From NCBI GenBank assembly GCA_000531095.1, contig HG799467.1, forward strand, positions 62,001 to 126,000: 64,000 bases of DNA, in the 5' to 3' direction. Shown piece by piece: positions 1 through 20,503 of the stretch. A program made the translations under genes and the position numbers. Under the pieces are notes generated by a model that worked only from the letters and a program-made list of their open reading frames with translations, ran no database searches and was not told where the DNA came from. This stretch comes from Gemmata massiliana (lineage in GTDB: Bacteria; Planctomycetota; Planctomycetia; Gemmatales; Gemmataceae). Position 1 is the first letter of the stretch; the number at the start of each line of letters is the position of its first letter.

Positions 1-922
1 CCGACGGCCATTCCACGCCTTCGATCGACCCGGGCACGCCCTGGAATTCGGACTCGAACGCGGACGCGCCCACTTCGGCCCGCTTCAGCATGATGTCGAG
101 CAAGCTGAATCGCTGGGGCCAGTAGAGCACCGCGCCCTCGTCCATCGCAGCTTTGTTCCGCTCGTAGAACGCACGCGCCGTTGTGTCGCGGTTGTCGTCG
201 GCGAGGTTCGTCGCAAGCCTCTCGAACTCGTCCCACAGGTCCATTCGCTTCGGCCAGGAGTGGACGGCCTTGTACGTGTGCCCGGACCAGCCGGCGAGTT
301 TGCCGAGACGGACCGCAACGGCCTCACGGTGGATGGCGGAGCCGACGGCGAGGAAGTTCGTGTGCTCATCGCCGGCGTTCATCACCTCGCGCGTGGCCCA
401 TCGCCAAGCGTGGTCGCGTTCGATCGGCGAGATAACGTCTTTGTTCGATTGAATGTCGTCGAAAATGATGAGTGACGGTCGGGCTGATCGGTTGCGGCGC
501 CCGCGCACCTTTTTGCCGCGGCCGAGGGCCTCGATAATCGACCCGTTGCGGAGTTGGATTCGCGACGTCTTCCATTCCGGCCCGACGCCCGCTGCGTCCG
601 AGTACACCGTGCGAATCAGGTCGTTGTCTTCGAGCTCCTTCCTGATGTGCCCTAAGTGCTGGTCGGCCTGGTCGCTGCTGTCCGACAGAATGAGCGTGTA
701 CTTCTCCCAACCCTCCAGGGCGGCACGGAGCGGGTAGGCGAGCGTCTTCCAGGTGCTTTTCGCTCCACCCCGCGGCGCGATGTCGGAGATCTTCACCGAT
801 CTCCGCTTGTGGAGTTGGTGCAGCTCGGTGTCGAACTGGCGGTGAAAGTCCGCCTGGCTGCCGCGGAAGTAGTGCGGCAGGTACGTGCGGTTCCAATCCG
901 TCGGCGATAACTCACGCGCCAT
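1..922 (-). CDS. terL: Terminase large subunit, N-terminal 307 codons (runs off left edge)
   Basis: The packaging motor ATPase/nuclease that translocates phage DNA into the prohead. My translation from the ATG at 922 gives an open frame to base 1. A Walker-A-like PRGGAKST lies at about residues 50-57 and a Walker-B-like LIIFDDIQS at about residues 125-133, in the right order for the N-terminal ATPase of TerL; the C-terminal nuclease domain is beyond the window. The start overlaps the end of the small subunit by 11 bases, the usual terS-terL arrangement. I am confident of the family because of motif order and neighbour. The exact TerL subfamily (and so the packaging mechanism) cannot be assigned from this part. 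Confidence 0.85.
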   Translation of the reverse strand, partial: MARELSPTDWNRTYLPHYFRGSQADFHRQFDTELHQLHKRRSVKISDIAPRGGAKSTWKTLAYPLRAALEGWEKYTLILSDSSDQADQHLGHIRKELEDNDLIRTVYSDAAGVGPEWKTSRIQLRNGSIIEALGRGKKVRGRRNRSARPSLIIFDDIQSNKDVISPIERDHAWRWATREVMNAGDEHTNFLAVGSAIHREAVAVRLGKLAGWSGHTYKAVHSWPKRMDLWDEFERLATNLADDNRDTTARAFYERNKAAMDEGAVLYWPQRFSLLDIMLKRAEVGASAFESEFQGVPGSIEGVEWPS

Positions 923-1688
923 CAGCCGTTCCCCGGCCGCCCAAATGCGGCGGAGCGAAGAGGGGGCGAAGGGCAGTGAGGAGAGCTGCGAGTTCATCGG
1001 GGGCCATCTTGGTCAGGTCCGGCAGGTCGCCGTCTTTGATCTTCACCACGTCCTCGAACATGCCGAGGTGCCGCGCGACGTTGACCAGTGCGGCGTGTTG
1101 GTCGTTGAGTTTGGCTTCGATTCCCTCTTTGGTTTGCTTCACGCCGGCGTAGAGGCACTTCGCCGCGGCAGACAGCAACCGAGTGTCTTTGATGTGGGTT
1201 CGGCCTTCGCCCTCACCGAAGCACTCGGAGCAGTCCGGGTGAGGCGGCTTCCTCGCGTCGTAACCGTCGCCCCCCATTGTGGCGAACGTGCCGGGGTGCG
1301 GTTCCTTCGAGTTGGCCTGGTGCGCACGGACCAGCACATCGTGCGCGGCCCGATCCCGCTCCAACTCCCCCTGCGTGCGCTGGTACCGGTTCCCGCGACC
1401 GTGGCAGTACCGGCAGCACGTCCGCCGGTACTCCACGATCTCGTTCGCATCGGCCGTCGCGATCGACCAGAACCGCTGTAGGACCGCGTCCGCACTGATC
1501 TCCGTGCTTTTACTGCGTTTCGCAATCGCCGCATCGATCGCCGCTTTTACGTCAACAAAAGTCAACAACCGCTGACCGATCTGCTTCGCCGTCTTTGCCG
1601 AATACCCTGCCCGAATAGCGGCTTGCGTTGCGTTCAGATCGATCAGGTATTCAGCGACGAAACGCTGTTGCTTGGGTGTAAGAGCCAT
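912..1688 (-). CDS. terS: Terminase small subunit with DnaJ-like zinc-finger insertion
   Basis: DNA-recognition subunit of the packaging terminase. The N-terminus (ALTPKQQRFVAEYLID, then NATQAAIRAGYS) is the classic Terminase_2 (TerS) helix-turn-helix region. I chose the ATG at 1688; a TTG three codons upstream (1697) is possible. The middle carries two CxxCxGxG units (CRYCHGRG and CSECFGEG) separated by about 60 residues, the pattern of the DnaJ central zinc finger, so a zinc-binding insertion is likely. The gene ends inside terL and begins shortly after the ParB-like gene, giving the phage order parB-like/terS/terL. About 258 aa, longer than minimal TerS proteins because of the zinc insertion. 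Confidence 0.85.
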   Translation of the reverse strand: MALTPKQQRFVAEYLIDLNATQAAIRAGYSAKTAKQIGQRLLTFVDVKAAIDAAIAKRSKSTEISADAVLQRFWSIATADANEIVEYRRTCCRYCHGRGNRYQRTQGELERDRAAHDVLVRAHQANSKEPHPGTFATMGGDGYDARKPPHPDCSECFGEGEGRTHIKDTRLLSAAAKCLYAGVKQTKEGIEAKLNDQHAALVNVARHLGMFEDVVKIKDGDLPDLTKMAPDELAALLTALRPLFAPPHLGGRGTADGA

Positions 1689-1703
1689 GCCCGGCAAATG
1701 GCA

Positions 1704-2432
1704 CTATTCCGCACCTGCCGATTCTTCCGTCAGATCGCGAATCACCACTGTGAGCGTCTCATACGCCGGCCAGCGATCACCCTCGAACGGCACCCCGTGA
1801 CGCTCGGCAACCTGCCGAAACCGATCGGCCAGTGGACCGGCCAACAGCTCGGGAATCGCACCAAACACGCGATCCCGGTCGGCGCGGTACAAAGTCGATA
1901 ACGCCCGCCGGAACCGTTCCAGGGGCCGAAACGCCAAGTTTGAACCGGGGGGTTCAAGCTCAAGACCGGCCGCACTTGCGATATCCCTGACAATTTGCGT
2001 CTGACTGATACCCTCGGCATGAGCGATATCACGTGTCGTCAGGCCACGGTCACGCAACGCGACAATGCGGGCCAGTCGCTCTTCGCGCCGGGCACTCTGC
2101 TCGGCCGGACTCAGGTGCCTGCGATCAATGTTCAGGTCCAGGCACTCGATCCGCGCGTCGTCGTCGCTCATCGGCCCCCGGTGTTGGACCGGAATATCGA
2201 TCGGGTGTTCCATCTCGCTCACGATCCGCAACCGATTGGCCCCGTCGATCACGCACCGATCACCCCATGTCGGGCTGTCGTAAGTCACGACGCGAGTCAG
2301 GACCCTGCGACGTCGGGTAATCGACTCCGTAAGGCCCGCGGCCTCCCGCTTGTTCAGCGGCCGGATCAGATCAGCAAACGGGAGCCGGTATAACAGCCCG
2401 CCCAGGCGAATCACCTTCACTGTCTCACTCAC
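1704..2432 (-). CDS. ParB/Srx-type nuclease-fold protein (phage ParB-like)
   Basis: The 242-aa protein begins at a GTG (2432) that overlaps the stop of the upstream gene in a 4-base GTGA. The N-terminal part has the ParB-like layout: a region with PLNKREAAGLTESI, then VIDGANRLRIVSE (the DGxxRxxA-type nucleotide-binding motif), followed by a helix-turn-helix-like stretch (RGLTTRDIAHAEGISQTQI). Phages often carry such proteins just upstream of terS. They may act as nucleases or DNA-binding regulators rather than in plasmid partition. The longer reading frame upstream of the GTG is a shadow of gene 2429-2623. No ParA is visible, so a true partition role is unlikely. Confidence 0.75.
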   Translation of the reverse strand: MSETVKVIRLGGLLYRLPFADLIRPLNKREAAGLTESITRRRRVLTRVVTYDSPTWGDRCVIDGANRLRIVSEMEHPIDIPVQHRGPMSDDDARIECLDLNIDRRHLSPAEQSARREERLARIVALRDRGLTTRDIAHAEGISQTQIVRDIASAAGLELEPPGSNLAFRPLERFRRALSTLYRADRDRVFGAIPELLAGPLADRFRQVAERHGVPFEGDRWPAYETLTVVIRDLTEESAGAE

Positions 2433-2638: not shown

Positions 2639-3085
2639 TCAGATCTGCCGACCCGCTGCCAACTCACGAGCGCGGGCCTGGATCTCGCGACAGGCCGCAA
2701 CAACCCCGACCGTGTCACGCCACTGGCGAGCGGCCACACAGCGCGATGCCGCTGCGCTGATGACCTCATCGAAGCCGCTGACACGTAATTGGCCGATCAT
2801 CCCGTCCGTTTCGCTCTCAAGCGCAGCCAGAGGCCCTGGCTGCCACGCGCGGAGCCACTCCAGCACTTCGGGTTTCCGGGCGACTAGCTGCTCACCGACG
2901 GACCGGGCTTCCTTCGGGCCTTTGATCCGCAGCGAATCGCCATCCACGATGAGCGCGATACCCGCTCGAACGGCTTGAAAGACCAGTTCCGGGACCGAAT
3001 CGCAGGTTTGCCGCAGGTTTGACGCAGGTTCCAACGCAGGTTTCCTCCGAAATCGGTTGTCGCAACCTGTTGAAAGATAAAGCAC
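2639..3085 (-). CDS. TubC-N-like small protein next to the origin
   Basis: The core (AGIALIVDGDSLRIKGP, then KPEVLEWLR) resembles the TubC N-terminal docking-domain fold found in many phage and primase-associated proteins; the remainder is an Ala-rich helical tail. The open frame starts at a GTG (3085) that has no clear ribosome-binding site, and its first 30 codons overlap four of the iterons at 3001-3043. The N-terminal part may therefore be constrained by origin sequence rather than protein function, and the true start may be further in. It lies immediately downstream of the replicative helicase and origin in transcription order. Function unknown. Confidence 0.5.
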   Translation of the reverse strand: MLYLSTGCDNRFRRKPALEPASNLRQTCDSVPELVFQAVRAGIALIVDGDSLRIKGPKEARSVGEQLVARKPEVLEWLRAWQPGPLAALESETDGMIGQLRVSGFDEVISAAASRCVAARQWRDTVGVVAACREIQARARELAAGRQI

Positions 3086-3378
3086 TTACAAAGACACCGC
3101 AGGTTTCGCAGGTTTGAAACCGGGTTAATCACCTCACACATGCGCGTATGCACACGCACACACGCATGCACGGGCGCCCGCGTATACGCTAAGGTGGGCA
3201 AAGAAACCTGCGAAACCTGCGGTGTTTCCATAACTCGTTCACTAATGCCATGTTGTGGACTGCCTGTTTTTGAGAAACCTGCGTTGAAACCTGCGATAAA
3301 CCTGCACGAAACCTGCGGTGTAAGCTGGGTCAGAATGTCGCTCGGGATTTCGGCTCGGAAACCTGCGGCAAACCTGCA
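3001..3378. repeat. Mirror-symmetric array of 14 nine-bp iterons: candidate replication origin
   Basis: Left of the axis the unit CGCAGGTTT occurs at 3001, 3012, 3023 (one mismatch), 3035, 3098 and 3107. Right of the axis the reverse complement AAACCTGCG occurs at 3204, 3213, 3275, 3287, 3298 (last base differs), 3309, 3359 and 3370 (last base differs). Units are spaced 11-12 bp within clusters, about one helical turn, and 9 bp in the inner pairs. The four-unit clusters 3001-3043 and 3275-3317 and the inner pairs are equidistant from an axis at about 3159. The inner pairs form a 22-bp perfect inverted repeat (3094-3115 with 3204-3225) around a central alternating CA/GC-rich stretch. The array abuts the helicase and primase genes, which is where a phage origin is expected. 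Confidence 0.75.
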
Positions 3379-5493
3379 TCACGCTGTGATGTCGAATTCC
3401 TCGTCAGACTCCGCATATTCATTTCTGGGCTTGGCTTCCGGCTTCTTGCTCGCCTTCACCTCTTGCAGCTTGTAACGCGGCCTACCGCTGTGATCGCGGT
3501 CCTCTTTGCCGTCCTGCCGAGTGACAGCCACGATGCGGTACCCGGCGCACACGCGGTCCCGCTGCTTCCGGAGGAAGCGCCCTAGCTGCTTCTTCCGGCC
3601 GTCGTCGTTCTCCGCGGTCAAAACGGATTCGAGAATCTCTTTCGCATCGGTGAACAGCTCCGACGCCATAACGGGAAGTGAATGGTGGCGTTCCCACCAA
3701 GCGCGGACGAACTCCGGCATCTCGTTCGCCTCGTTCGCGGAGAGTTGACGGAACTCCTCCGCGTTACCCAGCAGCCCATCAATCCCCGCGGCCGCGAGGA
3801 TGCCACCCACAGTGCGGGACCAGTGCTCGAACTTGCCGAGCGTCTCGGAGCCGGGCGGACGGCCCTGCGTGAGCCAGTTGTTCACAAGGGTGATGAGTGC
3901 GGCGAGCAGCCGTTCCCGGTTGTCTCGGATCCACTGGTGAATGTCGGGGTGGCGGTAACCGACGTGCTCGCTCGGGTTCTCCTCCCCACGGTCCAGGCGA
4001 ATCCAGTAGACGCGGCGGGCGATCTCGCGGGACACAAGGACGTTGTTCCCAGTGAGGAGCCAGCATACGTTGACGCGAGCGCGGGCAACGGTGGACGAGC
4101 CGAGGATGCGGCCGCGCTTGTATTTGGACGTGAGAGCCGCCGCGAGGTTGCCACTATCAACGGTCTTATTCGCGTTGTCGAAGTACACAACGGGCGAGCC
4201 GGCAATCAGTTCGGCCAGGAGCAGCTTGTTCCACTCCTCGTCTGAGAGGTCGGGACTCATCGCCTGAGGGATTTCGCCGATCGTGGTGAGTGTGACCACT
4301 TCCGCCAGCAACGATTTTCCCGTTCCTTCCGCCGGTGCGTCGATCAGCGCGAGCGGGGTCGGGCCGTCGATCGCGTGGCGGATCAGTGGCAAGATCAGCA
4401 TCGCAACCGCGTTGGCACGGCTCGACTGATCCACGAACGGGAAGTCGCCGAGCAGCTCCGTGACGATCAGCTCCCGCGCGGCCTCGACCTCTTCGACCGA
4501 CGGCCGGACCGGGACCGATGGGAGCGCGAGCGAACCGAGGTCGCAGTAGATCAGGGACGACGGGTGATAGCCGGAGGTCGCGGCCAGTTCCCATTTGGGA
4601 CCGAATACCGGATAGGTAGCGACCGAACGCAAATGTGGGATACCGGGCCACGCACCGCGGGCCGGAAAGCTCGTCAAAAGCGGTAGGGGCGGGAAGTCGT
4701 CCTTATAAGTGACACCCTGACTCGTTTCTTTGCGCGAGATCCAGTTGGCCACGCGCGCGAGCACGCCACGCAGCGAGTACGTATCCAGCTCGCGGGCCAT
4801 CAGAGACGAATCAGGATCGCTCTTCTGGAGGTCGACCAGGCCGCACCCATTACCCACGAACACGGACGGCGGGTCGTTGGCACGGACGAGGGCCTGCAGC
4901 GCGTCCGACTCGACGTCGCGGTACTGGCGCCCGTTGTGGACGATGTCCGGCAGGTCGTTGAGCGTGGAACCGTGGCCGTCGCCGTCACCGGCGGGCGGTG
5001 GCACACCTCGACCGGAACCGGCCGGCTGCTCGGACCGCGTGCGGGACCGCGATTCGCTCGGTGCGTTCCAGCCCGGCCGGTCCTCCTGCAGCTTCCACCC
5101 GCGCCCCTTTGGACAGGGTCCGCGATCGACCGCCTCATTCCATTTGCGGCGCAGCCCCTGCTTCCCGTCCTCTTCCCACGGCGGTGAACAGGTCGCGTTG
5201 TACTCGTCGAGCAGCGCGTAGCCGTCGGCTTCATCCACGCCGAAGTCATTCCAGATGACTCTGGCCGCGTGAAAAACGCGATCGCTCCCGTTCTGGCCCT
5301 CGACCGACGGGGGCAGTGTCTTCAGGTAGGCACGGCACCTCGCGACGCGGTTGTCCGCGTGCGGTCCGGTGCCCCGGGGCCGCTCGGCTCGTGGTGGGGC
5401 TGCAGCCCGACGCGCCGCTTCCTCCGCCGCGATCTCCGCGAGATATTCGGCCGCTACTTGCTCGATCAATTCGCGCGGGGTGACCTGACACAC
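3379..5493 (-). CDS. Phage D5-like replicative helicase with PriCT-type N-terminal region
   Basis: A 704-aa ATPase that probably unwinds DNA at the adjacent iteron origin. A Walker A (APAEGTGKSLL, about residues 386-396) and Walker B (VVYFDNANK, about 435-443) are present, followed by a sensor-like LLTGNN. The N-terminal 130 residues (AYLKTLPPSVEGQNG, then WNDFGVDEADGYALL) resemble the primase C-terminal/helicase-linker region common in phage primase-helicases. I chose the GTG at 5493, one base after the primase stop and preceded by CGGAG; the upstream extension is a shadow. The catalytic primase domain is absent here but is encoded by the gene just upstream, so primase and helicase are split between two genes. 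Confidence 0.8.
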   Translation of the reverse strand: MCQVTPRELIEQVAAEYLAEIAAEEAARRAAAPPRAERPRGTGPHADNRVARCRAYLKTLPPSVEGQNGSDRVFHAARVIWNDFGVDEADGYALLDEYNATCSPPWEEDGKQGLRRKWNEAVDRGPCPKGRGWKLQEDRPGWNAPSESRSRTRSEQPAGSGRGVPPPAGDGDGHGSTLNDLPDIVHNGRQYRDVESDALQALVRANDPPSVFVGNGCGLVDLQKSDPDSSLMARELDTYSLRGVLARVANWISRKETSQGVTYKDDFPPLPLLTSFPARGAWPGIPHLRSVATYPVFGPKWELAATSGYHPSSLIYCDLGSLALPSVPVRPSVEEVEAARELIVTELLGDFPFVDQSSRANAVAMLILPLIRHAIDGPTPLALIDAPAEGTGKSLLAEVVTLTTIGEIPQAMSPDLSDEEWNKLLLAELIAGSPVVYFDNANKTVDSGNLAAALTSKYKRGRILGSSTVARARVNVCWLLTGNNVLVSREIARRVYWIRLDRGEENPSEHVGYRHPDIHQWIRDNRERLLAALITLVNNWLTQGRPPGSETLGKFEHWSRTVGGILAAAGIDGLLGNAEEFRQLSANEANEMPEFVRAWWERHHSLPVMASELFTDAKEILESVLTAENDDGRKKQLGRFLRKQRDRVCAGYRIVAVTRQDGKEDRDHSGRPRYKLQEVKASKKPEAKPRNEYAESDEEFDITA

Positions 5494-5494
5494 G

Positions 5495-6241
5495 TCATGC
5501 TCCGATCGTAGACGGCACTTCGAGGACGCGGCACATGCGGTGCGGGCGCTCCGGGGTGCTGTCACCCTTCCGCGCCCACGTACCGGGGATCTTGATGATG
5601 CGACTCGGATTGAAAACGGTCGTGTCCACGCCCGCGAGCGGCGTGTTGTGGCGTCGTGCCATCTGCTTCAGCGTGCGTTCGATCTGGCCCCCGTCGTCGC
5701 GGGGCAGATCGACGCGGTACCACAGGTGGAACCCGTTCCCGCTGTCGATGAACATGGGAGCCCGGAACCCGCGGGCACTCAGATCGGACCGCACGCCGTC
5801 GATCACCGAGCGGGCCGCGGCCTTTTCCTCGTCGGTGGAGCTGACACCGGCGATGCGGCGCTTCGGGTCGACGTCCACGACGACCCACCGGCGCGAGACC
5901 ACGTCGCCATCGTCCGCGGAGATCTTCGCCAGCCCGTCACCCATCCGGTTGTTAGCGCGGGACAGGTAGACCGGGTCCACGCCGTTCATCGTGACGTAGA
6001 TCCCGGCCGGCTGCAGCTCAAGGGGGCGCGAGACGTACCCCTTGACGGCTTCCCAGAAGCCGCGCTTGCCCGGTTCGGTGAGCAGATCGAAGAACCCGGC
6101 CTCGGTGCGCGGGCGCCCGTACCGCTGCGGGGCGTTCGGCACCCGCAGTTCGACCACGAGCGAGCCGACGGCACCGGCAGTGAACACCGGGACAAAGCGT
6201 TTCAACTGCTCGCCACATTCGTTAATGGCGCTCTGTTCCAC
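5495..6241 (-). CDS. Archaeo-eukaryotic-type (AEP) phage primase
   Basis: A 248-aa protein that probably makes primers for element replication together with the helicase one base downstream. AEP hallmarks are visible: WVVVDVDPKRR (the hhDhD metal-binding motif I), DSGNGFHLWYRV (the sxH motif II with the glycine-rich lead-in) and a later VDTTVFNPSRIIKIPGT block corresponding to motif III and the conserved PGT(W) turn of phage AEPs. I preferred the GTG at 6241, preceded by GGAGG at a good distance, over the open frame starting at 6289, because the latter begins inside a perfect hairpin (6263-6297). No C-terminal PriCT is fused; that region sits in the helicase gene. Confidence 0.8.
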   Translation of the reverse strand: MEQSAINECGEQLKRFVPVFTAGAVGSLVVELRVPNAPQRYGRPRTEAGFFDLLTEPGKRGFWEAVKGYVSRPLELQPAGIYVTMNGVDPVYLSRANNRMGDGLAKISADDGDVVSRRWVVVDVDPKRRIAGVSSTDEEKAAARSVIDGVRSDLSARGFRAPMFIDSGNGFHLWYRVDLPRDDGGQIERTLKQMARRHNTPLAGVDTTVFNPSRIIKIPGTWARKGDSTPERPHRMCRVLEVPSTIGA

Positions 6242-6262
6242 CCGCACGCCTCCATTGCGTCG

Positions 6263-6297
6263 AACGGCCCGTGTGGACGTGTTCCACACGGGCCGTT
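6263..6297. terminator. Perfect 15-bp hairpin before the primase gene
   Basis: Arms 6263-6277 and 6283-6297 are exactly complementary with a 5-base loop. It lies between the stop of the zinc-ribbon gene (6325) and the primase start (6241). There is no U-run in the direction of transcription, so it may be a processing or attenuation structure or an operator rather than a classic terminator. It breaks the otherwise gapless gene series exactly at the replication module. Confidence 0.6.
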
Positions 6298-19158: not shown

Positions 19159-20298
19159 ATGGGCCGCGTGTTTCAGCCCACCTACACCAAGTCCGACGGG
19201 GCGGGCGGGCGGATTACGGTCAAGGTTAAGGACTGGTACTGTGAGTGGACCGATGCCGCGGGAGAGCAACGCAATCGAAAAATCGGCACCAAGAGCGCGG
19301 CGACGGCCGCACTTGCGAAGTTCGAGGAAGAGGCAGCCCGAAAGCGACACGGGCTGCCGGACCTGGCGGGCGAAGCGGTGGCCCACAACCGGCCGATCGA
19401 GGAGTTGTTCGCGGAGTACCTCGACGAGCTGGAGGGGCGCGACACCGCGGATGAGTACCGCAACAACGTGCGGCGCCACCTCCGGGGGATTTCCACCGCG
19501 TGCCACTGGCAGACGTGGGCGGACGTTACCGACGGCCCGGTAATCAAATTCCTGAACAGGCTTCGAGCCGGGAACAAGAATCAGAAGAGCCGCAGCCCCG
19601 CGACCGTGAACGGGTACGTCCGCAGCTCGAAGGGGTTCGCGGAGTGGTACGCGGACAAACTCGAAGTGCGTAACCCACTTCGTGGGGTGCGACTTTTCAA
19701 TGAGGAAGTCGACCGGCGCCGTTCGCGCCGGGTGCTCGACGACGACGAGTTCGCACGGTTCATCGCGGCAACCGAGGCGTGTCCACCGCGTCACAACGCC
19801 TTATTCACCGGCCCACAGCGCGCGGCACTTTATCGCGTGGCCGCGTACACCGGGCTGCGACTGAGCGAGCTGGCATCATTGACGCCGGACCACTTCCGGC
19901 TGGACGATGAGATCCCGGTGGTCGCGCCGCTCGCAAAAGACACCAAGGGGAAACGGTTCGAGCCGATCCCGTTGGAGGCAAGTCTGTTGGCTTTTCTGCG
20001 CGGCTGGCTCGCCGGCAAAGTACGCTCGCACCCACTCTGGCCCGGCACATGGGCGAAGCAGCGCCGGCACGTCAAATGGGTCGAAAGGGACGCGGCCCGC
20101 GCTGAATTGGGACCGGGAGTGATTTTCCACTCGCTGCGCCGGAAATTCGTCACGGATTTGTTTAAATCGGGGGCCGATATCGACGAGGTACGCAGGTTGG
20201 CGCGGCACAAATCGGTGCAGACGACCCTCAACCACTACGCCGAAAGCAAGCTATCGCACCTCGCAAAAGCAGTCAGTCGGCTCAAACCGCTTGCGTAA
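19159..20298 (+). CDS. int: Tyrosine-type integrase
   Basis: Site-specific recombinase of 379 aa. The catalytic residues are all visible: R in TGLRLSELASL, then HSLRRKFVTDLF (H and R), then ARHKSVQTTLNHYAESKL with the second H and the nucleophile Y. The N-terminal 60 residues (WYCEWTDAAGEQRNRKIGT) are the arm-type DNA-binding domain, followed by a SAM-like core-binding domain. Its 3' end lies 130 bases from the 3' end of a tRNA(His)-like gene, the usual orientation for integration into a tRNA. The start ATG at 19159 is 18 bases after gene 18250-19140. Confidence 0.92.
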   Translation: MGRVFQPTYTKSDGAGGRITVKVKDWYCEWTDAAGEQRNRKIGTKSAATAALAKFEEEAARKRHGLPDLAGEAVAHNRPIEELFAEYLDELEGRDTADEYRNNVRRHLRGISTACHWQTWADVTDGPVIKFLNRLRAGNKNQKSRSPATVNGYVRSSKGFAEWYADKLEVRNPLRGVRLFNEEVDRRRSRRVLDDDEFARFIAATEACPPRHNALFTGPQRAALYRVAAYTGLRLSELASLTPDHFRLDDEIPVVAPLAKDTKGKRFEPIPLEASLLAFLRGWLAGKVRSHPLWPGTWAKQRRHVKWVERDAARAELGPGVIFHSLRRKFVTDLFKSGADIDEVRRLARHKSVQTTLNHYAESKLSHLAKAVSRLKPLA

Positions 20299-20414: not shown

Positions 20415-20428
20415 TCGCTCTTTCCTAG

Positions 20429-20503
20429 GGTGACTGACGGGATTTGAACCCGCGACTTCCAGATCCACAATGTAGCACTGTAGCCAAGTGAGCTACAGCC
20501 ACC
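20429..20503 (-). tRNA. tRNA(His)-like gene, probable attachment site
   Basis: On the minus strand this folds as a tRNA with an extra 5' G (G at -1 opposite C73), acceptor GTGGCTG/CAGTCAC with one G-U, T-arm GCGGG-TTCAAAT-CCCGT and an anticodon loop TTGTGGA with GTG (His). The D-stem pairs poorly and the anticodon stem has one C-C mismatch (CTACA with TCTGG), so the 5' half may have diverged or been altered at recombination. CCA is not encoded. The gene's 3' end faces the integrase, as expected for attB/attR. It is either functional tRNA-His or a decayed copy. Confidence 0.7.

Follow-up and report, generated by a model that had tools for sequence, protein, structure and literature searches.

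A mirror-symmetric array of 14 nine-base-pair units at positions 3001 to 3378 of the window, the whole 64,000-nt stretch of Gemmata massiliana DNA analyzed here, is very likely the origin from which a prophage replicates bidirectionally, and of the RepA/RepB-iteron (PICI-like) type, by analogy with replicons whose origins have been tested. The units, their mirror arrangement, its recurrence beside homologous helicase genes, the homology of the adjoining helicase to a footprinted initiator and an alternating purine-pyrimidine tract in the center of the array were observed directly. Helicase homology and layout place the array very probably among origins of the pWTY27 and PICI type. Two things appear to be new, the sequence-independent rule of the mirror and the alternating tract at the axis. 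The literature search found no paper on either; the main SaPI origin papers were outside its coverage, and priority is not claimed.

The array lies in a prophage with probable ends (Table 1). The tRNA-His gene, the adjoining integrase gene and a 51-nt identical copy of the tRNA-His 3' end at C6:32955-33005, beyond the window and probably the left end of the prophage, bound the element at about 49.5 kb. This size and the presence of its own terminase small subunit and integrase speak for a prophage rather than a helper-dependent PICI satellite. IMG/VR contains the array region as a viral contig. Identical tRNA-His 3' fragments were also present at C6:8183-8226 and C9:306861-306903, which suggests tandem elements integrated side by side at one tRNA gene, with a further fragment on C9. 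The array is placed immediately after the stop codon of the helicase gene, which itself follows a putative primase gene. On the side away from the helicase are the TubC_N-domain, ParB/RNase E-like and terminase small subunit genes.

Table 1. Positions of the array, its parts and the neighboring genes in the window
Feature	Position	Strand	Remarks
Window (contig labeled C6)	HG799467.1:62,001-126,000 (64,000 nt)	+	Gemmata massiliana, GCA_000531095.1; genome 9.27 Mb
Terminase small subunit gene	912-1697		About 1.3 kb from the array
ParB/RNase E-like gene	1704-2393		Weak PHROG matches; <2 kb from the array
TubC_N-domain gene	2639-3034	-	Pfam TubC_N, E 7.6e-07; probable translation start overlaps left outer cluster
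Left outer cluster	3001-3043	+	Four CGCAGGTTT units: 3001, 3012, 3023 (one mismatch), 3035; mirror of 3275-3317
Left inner pair	3098-3115	+	Two abutting units: 3098, 3107; with 3094-3097, half of the 22-bp inverted repeat
Central gap, 88 bp	3116-3203		Separates the inner pairs; axis at about 3159.5
Alternating purine-pyrimidine tract	3135-3172		38 nt, uninterrupted
Right inner pair	3204-3221	-	Two abutting AAACCTGCG units: 3204, 3213
Right outer cluster	3275-3317	-	Four units: 3275, 3287, 3298 (one mismatch), 3309
Extra unit pair	3359-3378	-	3359, 3370 (one mismatch); without mirror partner; ends at helicase stop codon
D5/SaPI-Rep-type helicase gene, putative initiator	3379-5565	-	728 aa from first GTG; true start perhaps further in
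Putative archaeo-eukaryotic primase (AEP) gene	5495-6289	-	Same direction as helicase gene, upstream of it
Integrase gene	19159-20298		Adjoins tRNA-His gene
tRNA-His gene	20428-20502 (C6:82428-82502)	-	Probable right attachment site of the prophage

Six units of sequence CGCAGGTTT on the plus strand lie to the left of position 3159.5, and eight of sequence AAACCTGCG, on the minus strand, lie to the right of it. The earlier note on this DNA had the layout right but took the units as identical; 11 are exact and 3 carry one mismatch. Six unit pairs with a span of 316 bp are mirrored about 3159 to 3159.5 with a deviation of at most 1 bp, in agreement with the proposal that clusters and inner pairs are equidistant from an axis at about 3159, and the inner units are 48.5 and 57.5 bp from the axis. 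The perfect 22-bp inverted repeat ascribed to the inner pairs was found at 3094-3115/3204-3225, with its arms 88 bp apart, and the center that had been called CA/GC rich resolved into the alternating tract. The DNA between the units is dissimilar in the two arms, with 18 of 49 and 7 of 43 positions identical, indicating that the array is not simply a recent inverted duplication and that the placement of the units is what is kept. Further exact copies of the unit in the 64 kb number two (50230 and 57663), and a scan allowing one mismatch gave 32 matches compared with 16.5 expected, a number reached in none of 100 shuffles. A classical iteron plasmid origin has its iterons all in the same direction, beside a DUE; here, the units are opposed about an axis instead of following that one-directional layout. 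A reversed unit, common in relatives, could not be demonstrated in the window. A degenerate reversed pair (AACCTG on the plus strand at 3064-3069, mirrored at 3249-3254) was considered and rejected, because the test favored another candidate, which was equaled by 1126 of 5000 shuffles.

To judge from the sequence, the likelier start of the TubC_N gene is the TTG at 3034-3032, preceded by GGAGG at 3048-3044; the Pfam domain begins at codon 33 of the longest open reading frame. With this start, three units would lie within the first codons, as had been claimed for the left cluster as a whole, and the unit at 3035-3043 would lie between GGAGG and TTG. Since a unit is placed between the likely ribosome site and the start codon (3032-3048), initiator binding could affect the TubC_N gene too.

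Recurrence of the mirror was examined in 80 loci around helicase homologues, which include the window and are partly related to each other. The scan accepted any 9-mer, with one mismatch allowed, in mirrored pairs no more than 700 bp from the helicase stop codon. At least three mirrored pairs were present in 26 of the 80 loci, compared with 1 of 363 control windows of equal size from other parts of these loci and none of 800 dinucleotide shuffles. The single positive control window contained the array of locus L068 itself, which lies 1.2 kb downstream. The numbers for at least two pairs were 56 of 80 loci, 59 of 363 control windows and 30 of 800 shuffles. Conversely, 54 loci had no three mirrored pairs near the stop codon, including 24 with fewer than two and thus without an array in the 700-bp scan. 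Conservation of the axis in relatives, the check proposed in the earlier note, was therefore found in a minority of loci, but one that excludes chance. Duplicates (L112, L113, L117, L119, L121, L122 and L125) were left out before counting and the window's own copy (L076) was dropped beforehand; L098 to L102, duplicates by place, were outside the scan. L034 was scored as a miss; its four mirrored pairs lie about 860 bp upstream of the helicase open reading frame.

In many homologues the array lies directly behind the helicase stop codon, and the unit sequence differs from locus to locus, for example, TTTAGGACG in L077, TTGCGGTGT in L078, CTGCCGAAC in L065, TTGGTGGAC in L062 and TGGTGAACC in L123, where 12 units form six mirrored pairs. 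Thirteen of the 26 positive loci mirror spaced units about the inner axis (the window, L059, L062, L064, L065, L077, L078, L083, L086, L103, L120, L123 and L127), although the right arm lacks one inner unit in L064 and L103. Eight (L036, L042, L046, L048, L070, L075, L088 and L089) consist of single tandem blocks facing each other, a pattern that any inverted tandem repeat would give; in two of them the central gap measures just 18 and 12 bp, respectively. The mirrored 9-bp blocks of L036, L042, L046 and L048 are inside the helicase reading frame, at its 3' end, and low-complexity helicase tails were seen, such as STPSTPSTP (L036) and GDAGDAGD (L042). In the remaining five (L074, L104, L105, L107 and L108) the best-scoring axis differs from the inner-pair axis, the inner pairs being mirrored and the outer clusters shifted. 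Despite the different units, the inner units lie about 33 to 56 and 42 to 66 bp from the axis, with L083, L145 and the tested Escherichia coli PICI EcCICFT073 as exceptions. The reversed unit, where present, lies about 84 to 112 bp from the axis, and on one side only in L064, L069, L074, L077, L086, L104, L107 and L108.

Seven further records were scanned besides pWTY27. The Streptomyces plasmids L145 and L146 had five and six mirrored pairs, respectively, pCM32 and pMNOD06 had two, and three records had none. No such array was found behind the helicase gene of Ruegeria phage V10, phiCbK, phiAsp2 and RcXuper (L095, L096, L149 and L150) or behind the homologue in a Methylobacterium tardum plasmid (L147). 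In the Methanosarcinales virus vir525 (BK063673; L097:6507-6840), opposed TACCCGCAA units stand behind a helicase homologue around a center of 18% GC; the plan of this archaeal virus resembles that of the window array but is less exact. A second mirrored array was found in a neighboring element at C6:2903-3188 (L128:2903-3188), with the unit GGTGACAGG and three mirrored pairs at offsets like the others. It overlaps the 3' end of a 1038-aa open reading frame that matches DUF5906 weakly (E 0.0066, short of the curated cutoff) and was not among the matches of the homologue search with the window helicase. This element and the window prophage both end at fragments of the same tRNA-His. The exact tandem CGCAGGTTTCGCAGGTTT was also tried and abandoned; it gave 9 stretches in the viral collection but no cluster of more than three units, except in the element itself (L030).

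The helicase is 31% identical to RepA of the Streptomyces plasmid pWTY27 over 480 aligned positions and had this protein as its top match in the plasmid search. A Pfam search with the helicase gave no family, a sequence search against solved structures (queries A1 and A2) gave no match at E values up to 1, and a single-protein scan of genome contigs gave no relative. The AlphaFold2 model had a mean pLDDT of 70.8, with 203 of 728 residues below 50. It matched SaPI5 Rep with a Z score of 15.2 (323 residues, rmsd 5.4), the poxvirus E5 and D5 with 14.0 and 13.6, respectively, and the NrS-1 CTR with 13.2; fold families absent from the list of structure matches are not thereby excluded. By this structural comparison, the helicase is predicted to have the AAA+ core fold of SaPI Rep and D5. 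Residues 602 to 703, where the C-terminal winged-helix DNA-binding domain that goes with this fold might lie, were modeled as helices and two strands, and 7pds aligned over 256 to 703 of the whole model rather than with a separate domain. We tentatively take the product of 5495-6289 to be an AEP from its motifs. It had no match in a Pfam search, and its structure model (pLDDT 40.7) was too poor for use. Stretches 41 to 48% identical to it occur in L065, L072, L059, L068, L034 and L033; several relatives have the counterpart either as the N-terminal portion of the helicase or immediately upstream of it.

Functional evidence for an array of this plan comes from pWTY27. In the parts of the plasmid paper covered here (PMC3583192), RepA protects positions 405 to 447 and 462 to 509, the locus replicates bidirectionally, and a 300-bp segment (321 to 620) restores replication, whereas 149 bp (382 to 530) does not. 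An array was detected right behind repA in which five of five pairs are mirrored. After conversion to the coordinates of the published record, both inner pairs (404 to 421 and 486 to 503) are covered by the footprints, the axis at 453.5 falls in the unprotected stretch 448 to 461, and the failing 149-bp piece holds, in our mapping, only the inner pairs. For the window array, binding to the region with the inner pairs, a need for the outer part and bidirectional replication may be expected by analogy with this homologue (PMC3583192). The earlier proposal of a bidirectional phage origin gains support from the recurrent mirror and from these footprint, deletion and replication data. The opposed initiator filaments of the same proposal go, if extended over the whole array, beyond the pWTY27 data, in which the footprint covers the inner pairs. 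As a point against an origin, the GC skew across the prophage showed no switch at the array.

In the mechanism that we propose, the helicase would be its own initiator and would bind the 9-bp units, the inner pairs first. Two opposed initiator complexes would then face the axis. The 88 bp of the central gap, which include the alternating tract, might be distorted or opened between the complexes, and two helicase rings could be loaded in head-to-head orientation and move away from each other, with the adjacent primase priming the new strands.

Other functions of the array were weighed against this origin. The units might be a partition site that binds a ParB-like protein, for example, the product of 1704-2393. 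Centromeres are repeat arrays, and a ParB/RNase E-like gene with weak PHROG matches is encoded less than 2 kb away. This reading is very improbable, since arrays of like plan stand behind homologous helicases, the tested PICI origin has the mirror, and the initiator of pWTY27 binds the counterpart (parts of PMC3583192 covered). An operator array, whose units would bind a repressor acting on the TubC_N gene and on the downstream packaging genes, is suggested by the overlap of the left cluster with the probable TubC_N translation start, and initiator autoregulation could occur as a side effect of the array. As the main function it is slightly less credible still, because opposed or mirrored arrays lie behind helicases with different annotated downstream genes (a hypothetical gene and SSB in EcCICFT073, ParA in L145).

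It is equally doubtful, at a chance as slim as that of a partition site, that each unit serves the AEP as a template signal and is not a helicase site. Such recognition is known from NrS-1, whose two strands each carry one PrimPol site of 8 nt near the middle of the genome (as far as PMC7102993 was covered), and the putative AEP gene adjoins the array, but in pWTY27 it is the helicase RepA itself that leaves footprints on the inner units (PMC3583192, in part). A combination of the two roles is conceivable, as suggested for SCCmec CCPol-MP in the covered part of PMC7581432. A packaging (pac/cos) site, suggested by the small terminase gene 1.3 kb away, has next to no probability, given the mirrored arrays on the Streptomyces plasmids L145 and L146, which had no terminase annotated in the stretches examined.

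For the replication origin, the center of the array deserves separate consideration. The tract is the only alternating purine-pyrimidine run of at least 18 nt in the 64-kb window and in C6:1-100000. An AT-rich region between the iteron sets, a PICI feature, was not found in the window, where the central gap has 59% GC and 18% of same-size windows are equally low. In 23 of 46 arrays (14 of 27 plus 9 of 19), the alternating run of the gap was longer than in any sampled window of its own locus. Locus windows for the run and AT comparisons were sampled at every third base, and inner pairs for the gap analyses were picked by hand among the pairs that the scan listed; the set of 19 omits L145, whose gap had been chosen too short. 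Among the other 23 arrays, ten (L036, L046, L049, L070, L078, L088, L120, L126, L146 and vir525) have a gap within the 5% most AT-rich locus windows, and thirteen show neither feature. From this distribution, the tract seems to substitute for an AT-rich opening region, but not universally. Tentatively, and with the odds rather against it, the tract may be a selected origin element that turns into left-handed Z-DNA under negative supercoiling, with the opposed initiator complexes loading at the B-Z junctions. The tracts contain 31 TA steps compared with 30.3 expected, a step composition that does not tell Z-DNA from easily melting or flexible DNA. If the Z-DNA reading is true, what is conserved in this origin element would be a physical property instead of a sequence, and in one large group of phages and plasmids the tract would take the place of AT-rich melting DNA. 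With such a tract at the axis, it becomes possible to test whether a bacterial replicon uses left-handed or flexible DNA as its opening element.

As a sequence-independent signature of D5/SaPI-Rep helicase origins, the mirror points to a candidate origin in spite of changes in the unit. The elements connected in this way are prophages of planctomycete-like hosts, plasmids of actinomycetes, an island of E. coli and, less tightly, a virus of methanogens.

The window shares with pWTY27 the homologous helicase, the array of mirrored pairs directly behind it and the abutting inner pairs around a central gap, which is 64 bp in the plasmid. The two differ in the unit (CGTGGGAAC in pWTY27, CGCAGGTTT in the window), in one reversed unit on each side of its array that the window is without, and in an alternating run of only 12 nt in its center compared with 38 nt in the window. 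RepB of pWTY27 had no similarity to the window primase detectable by BLASTP. The covered parts of the pWTY27 paper describe direct and inverted repeats and a stem-loop model and do not name the mirror (PMC3583192).

With PICI and SaPI, represented by EcCICFT073, the window shares a layout in which the origin, a probable one in the window, lies directly 3' of the primase-helicase gene and has two iteron sets, and in EcCICFT073 the pri-rep-ori segment drives plasmid replication (both from the covered part of PMC6092414). The fold of SaPI5 Rep is, according to the model, also that of the window helicase. In the tested EcCICFT073 origin, an outer pair, a reversed unit and an inner pair are mirrored about one axis; the geometry is shorter, with inner units 21.5 and 32.5 bp from the axis rather than 48.5 and 57.5 bp, and the A+T-rich stretch lies between the outer and reversed units of one side instead of at the axis. 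EcCICFT073 is a satellite, whereas the window element is rather an autonomous phage. For this kind of helicase, head-to-head iterons are less unusual than the earlier note assumed: opposed iterons flank the opening region in PICI origins (PMC6092414, in part), and they occur in the crr of phage P4 too. The latter (L138:4291-4590) lies just 3' of the alpha gene and has 9-bp spaced type I repeats, partly in opposed pairs, but its mirror is inexact, a second ori is located elsewhere, and there are two 120-bp direct repeats. In SV40 and papillomavirus, the initiator helicase recognizes its own origin through opposed sites around an opening center, as is proposed for the window array; the sites are short pentamers and the host is eukaryotic. 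The initiator of this type carries its DNA-binding domain at the N-terminus (covered part of PMC7581432).
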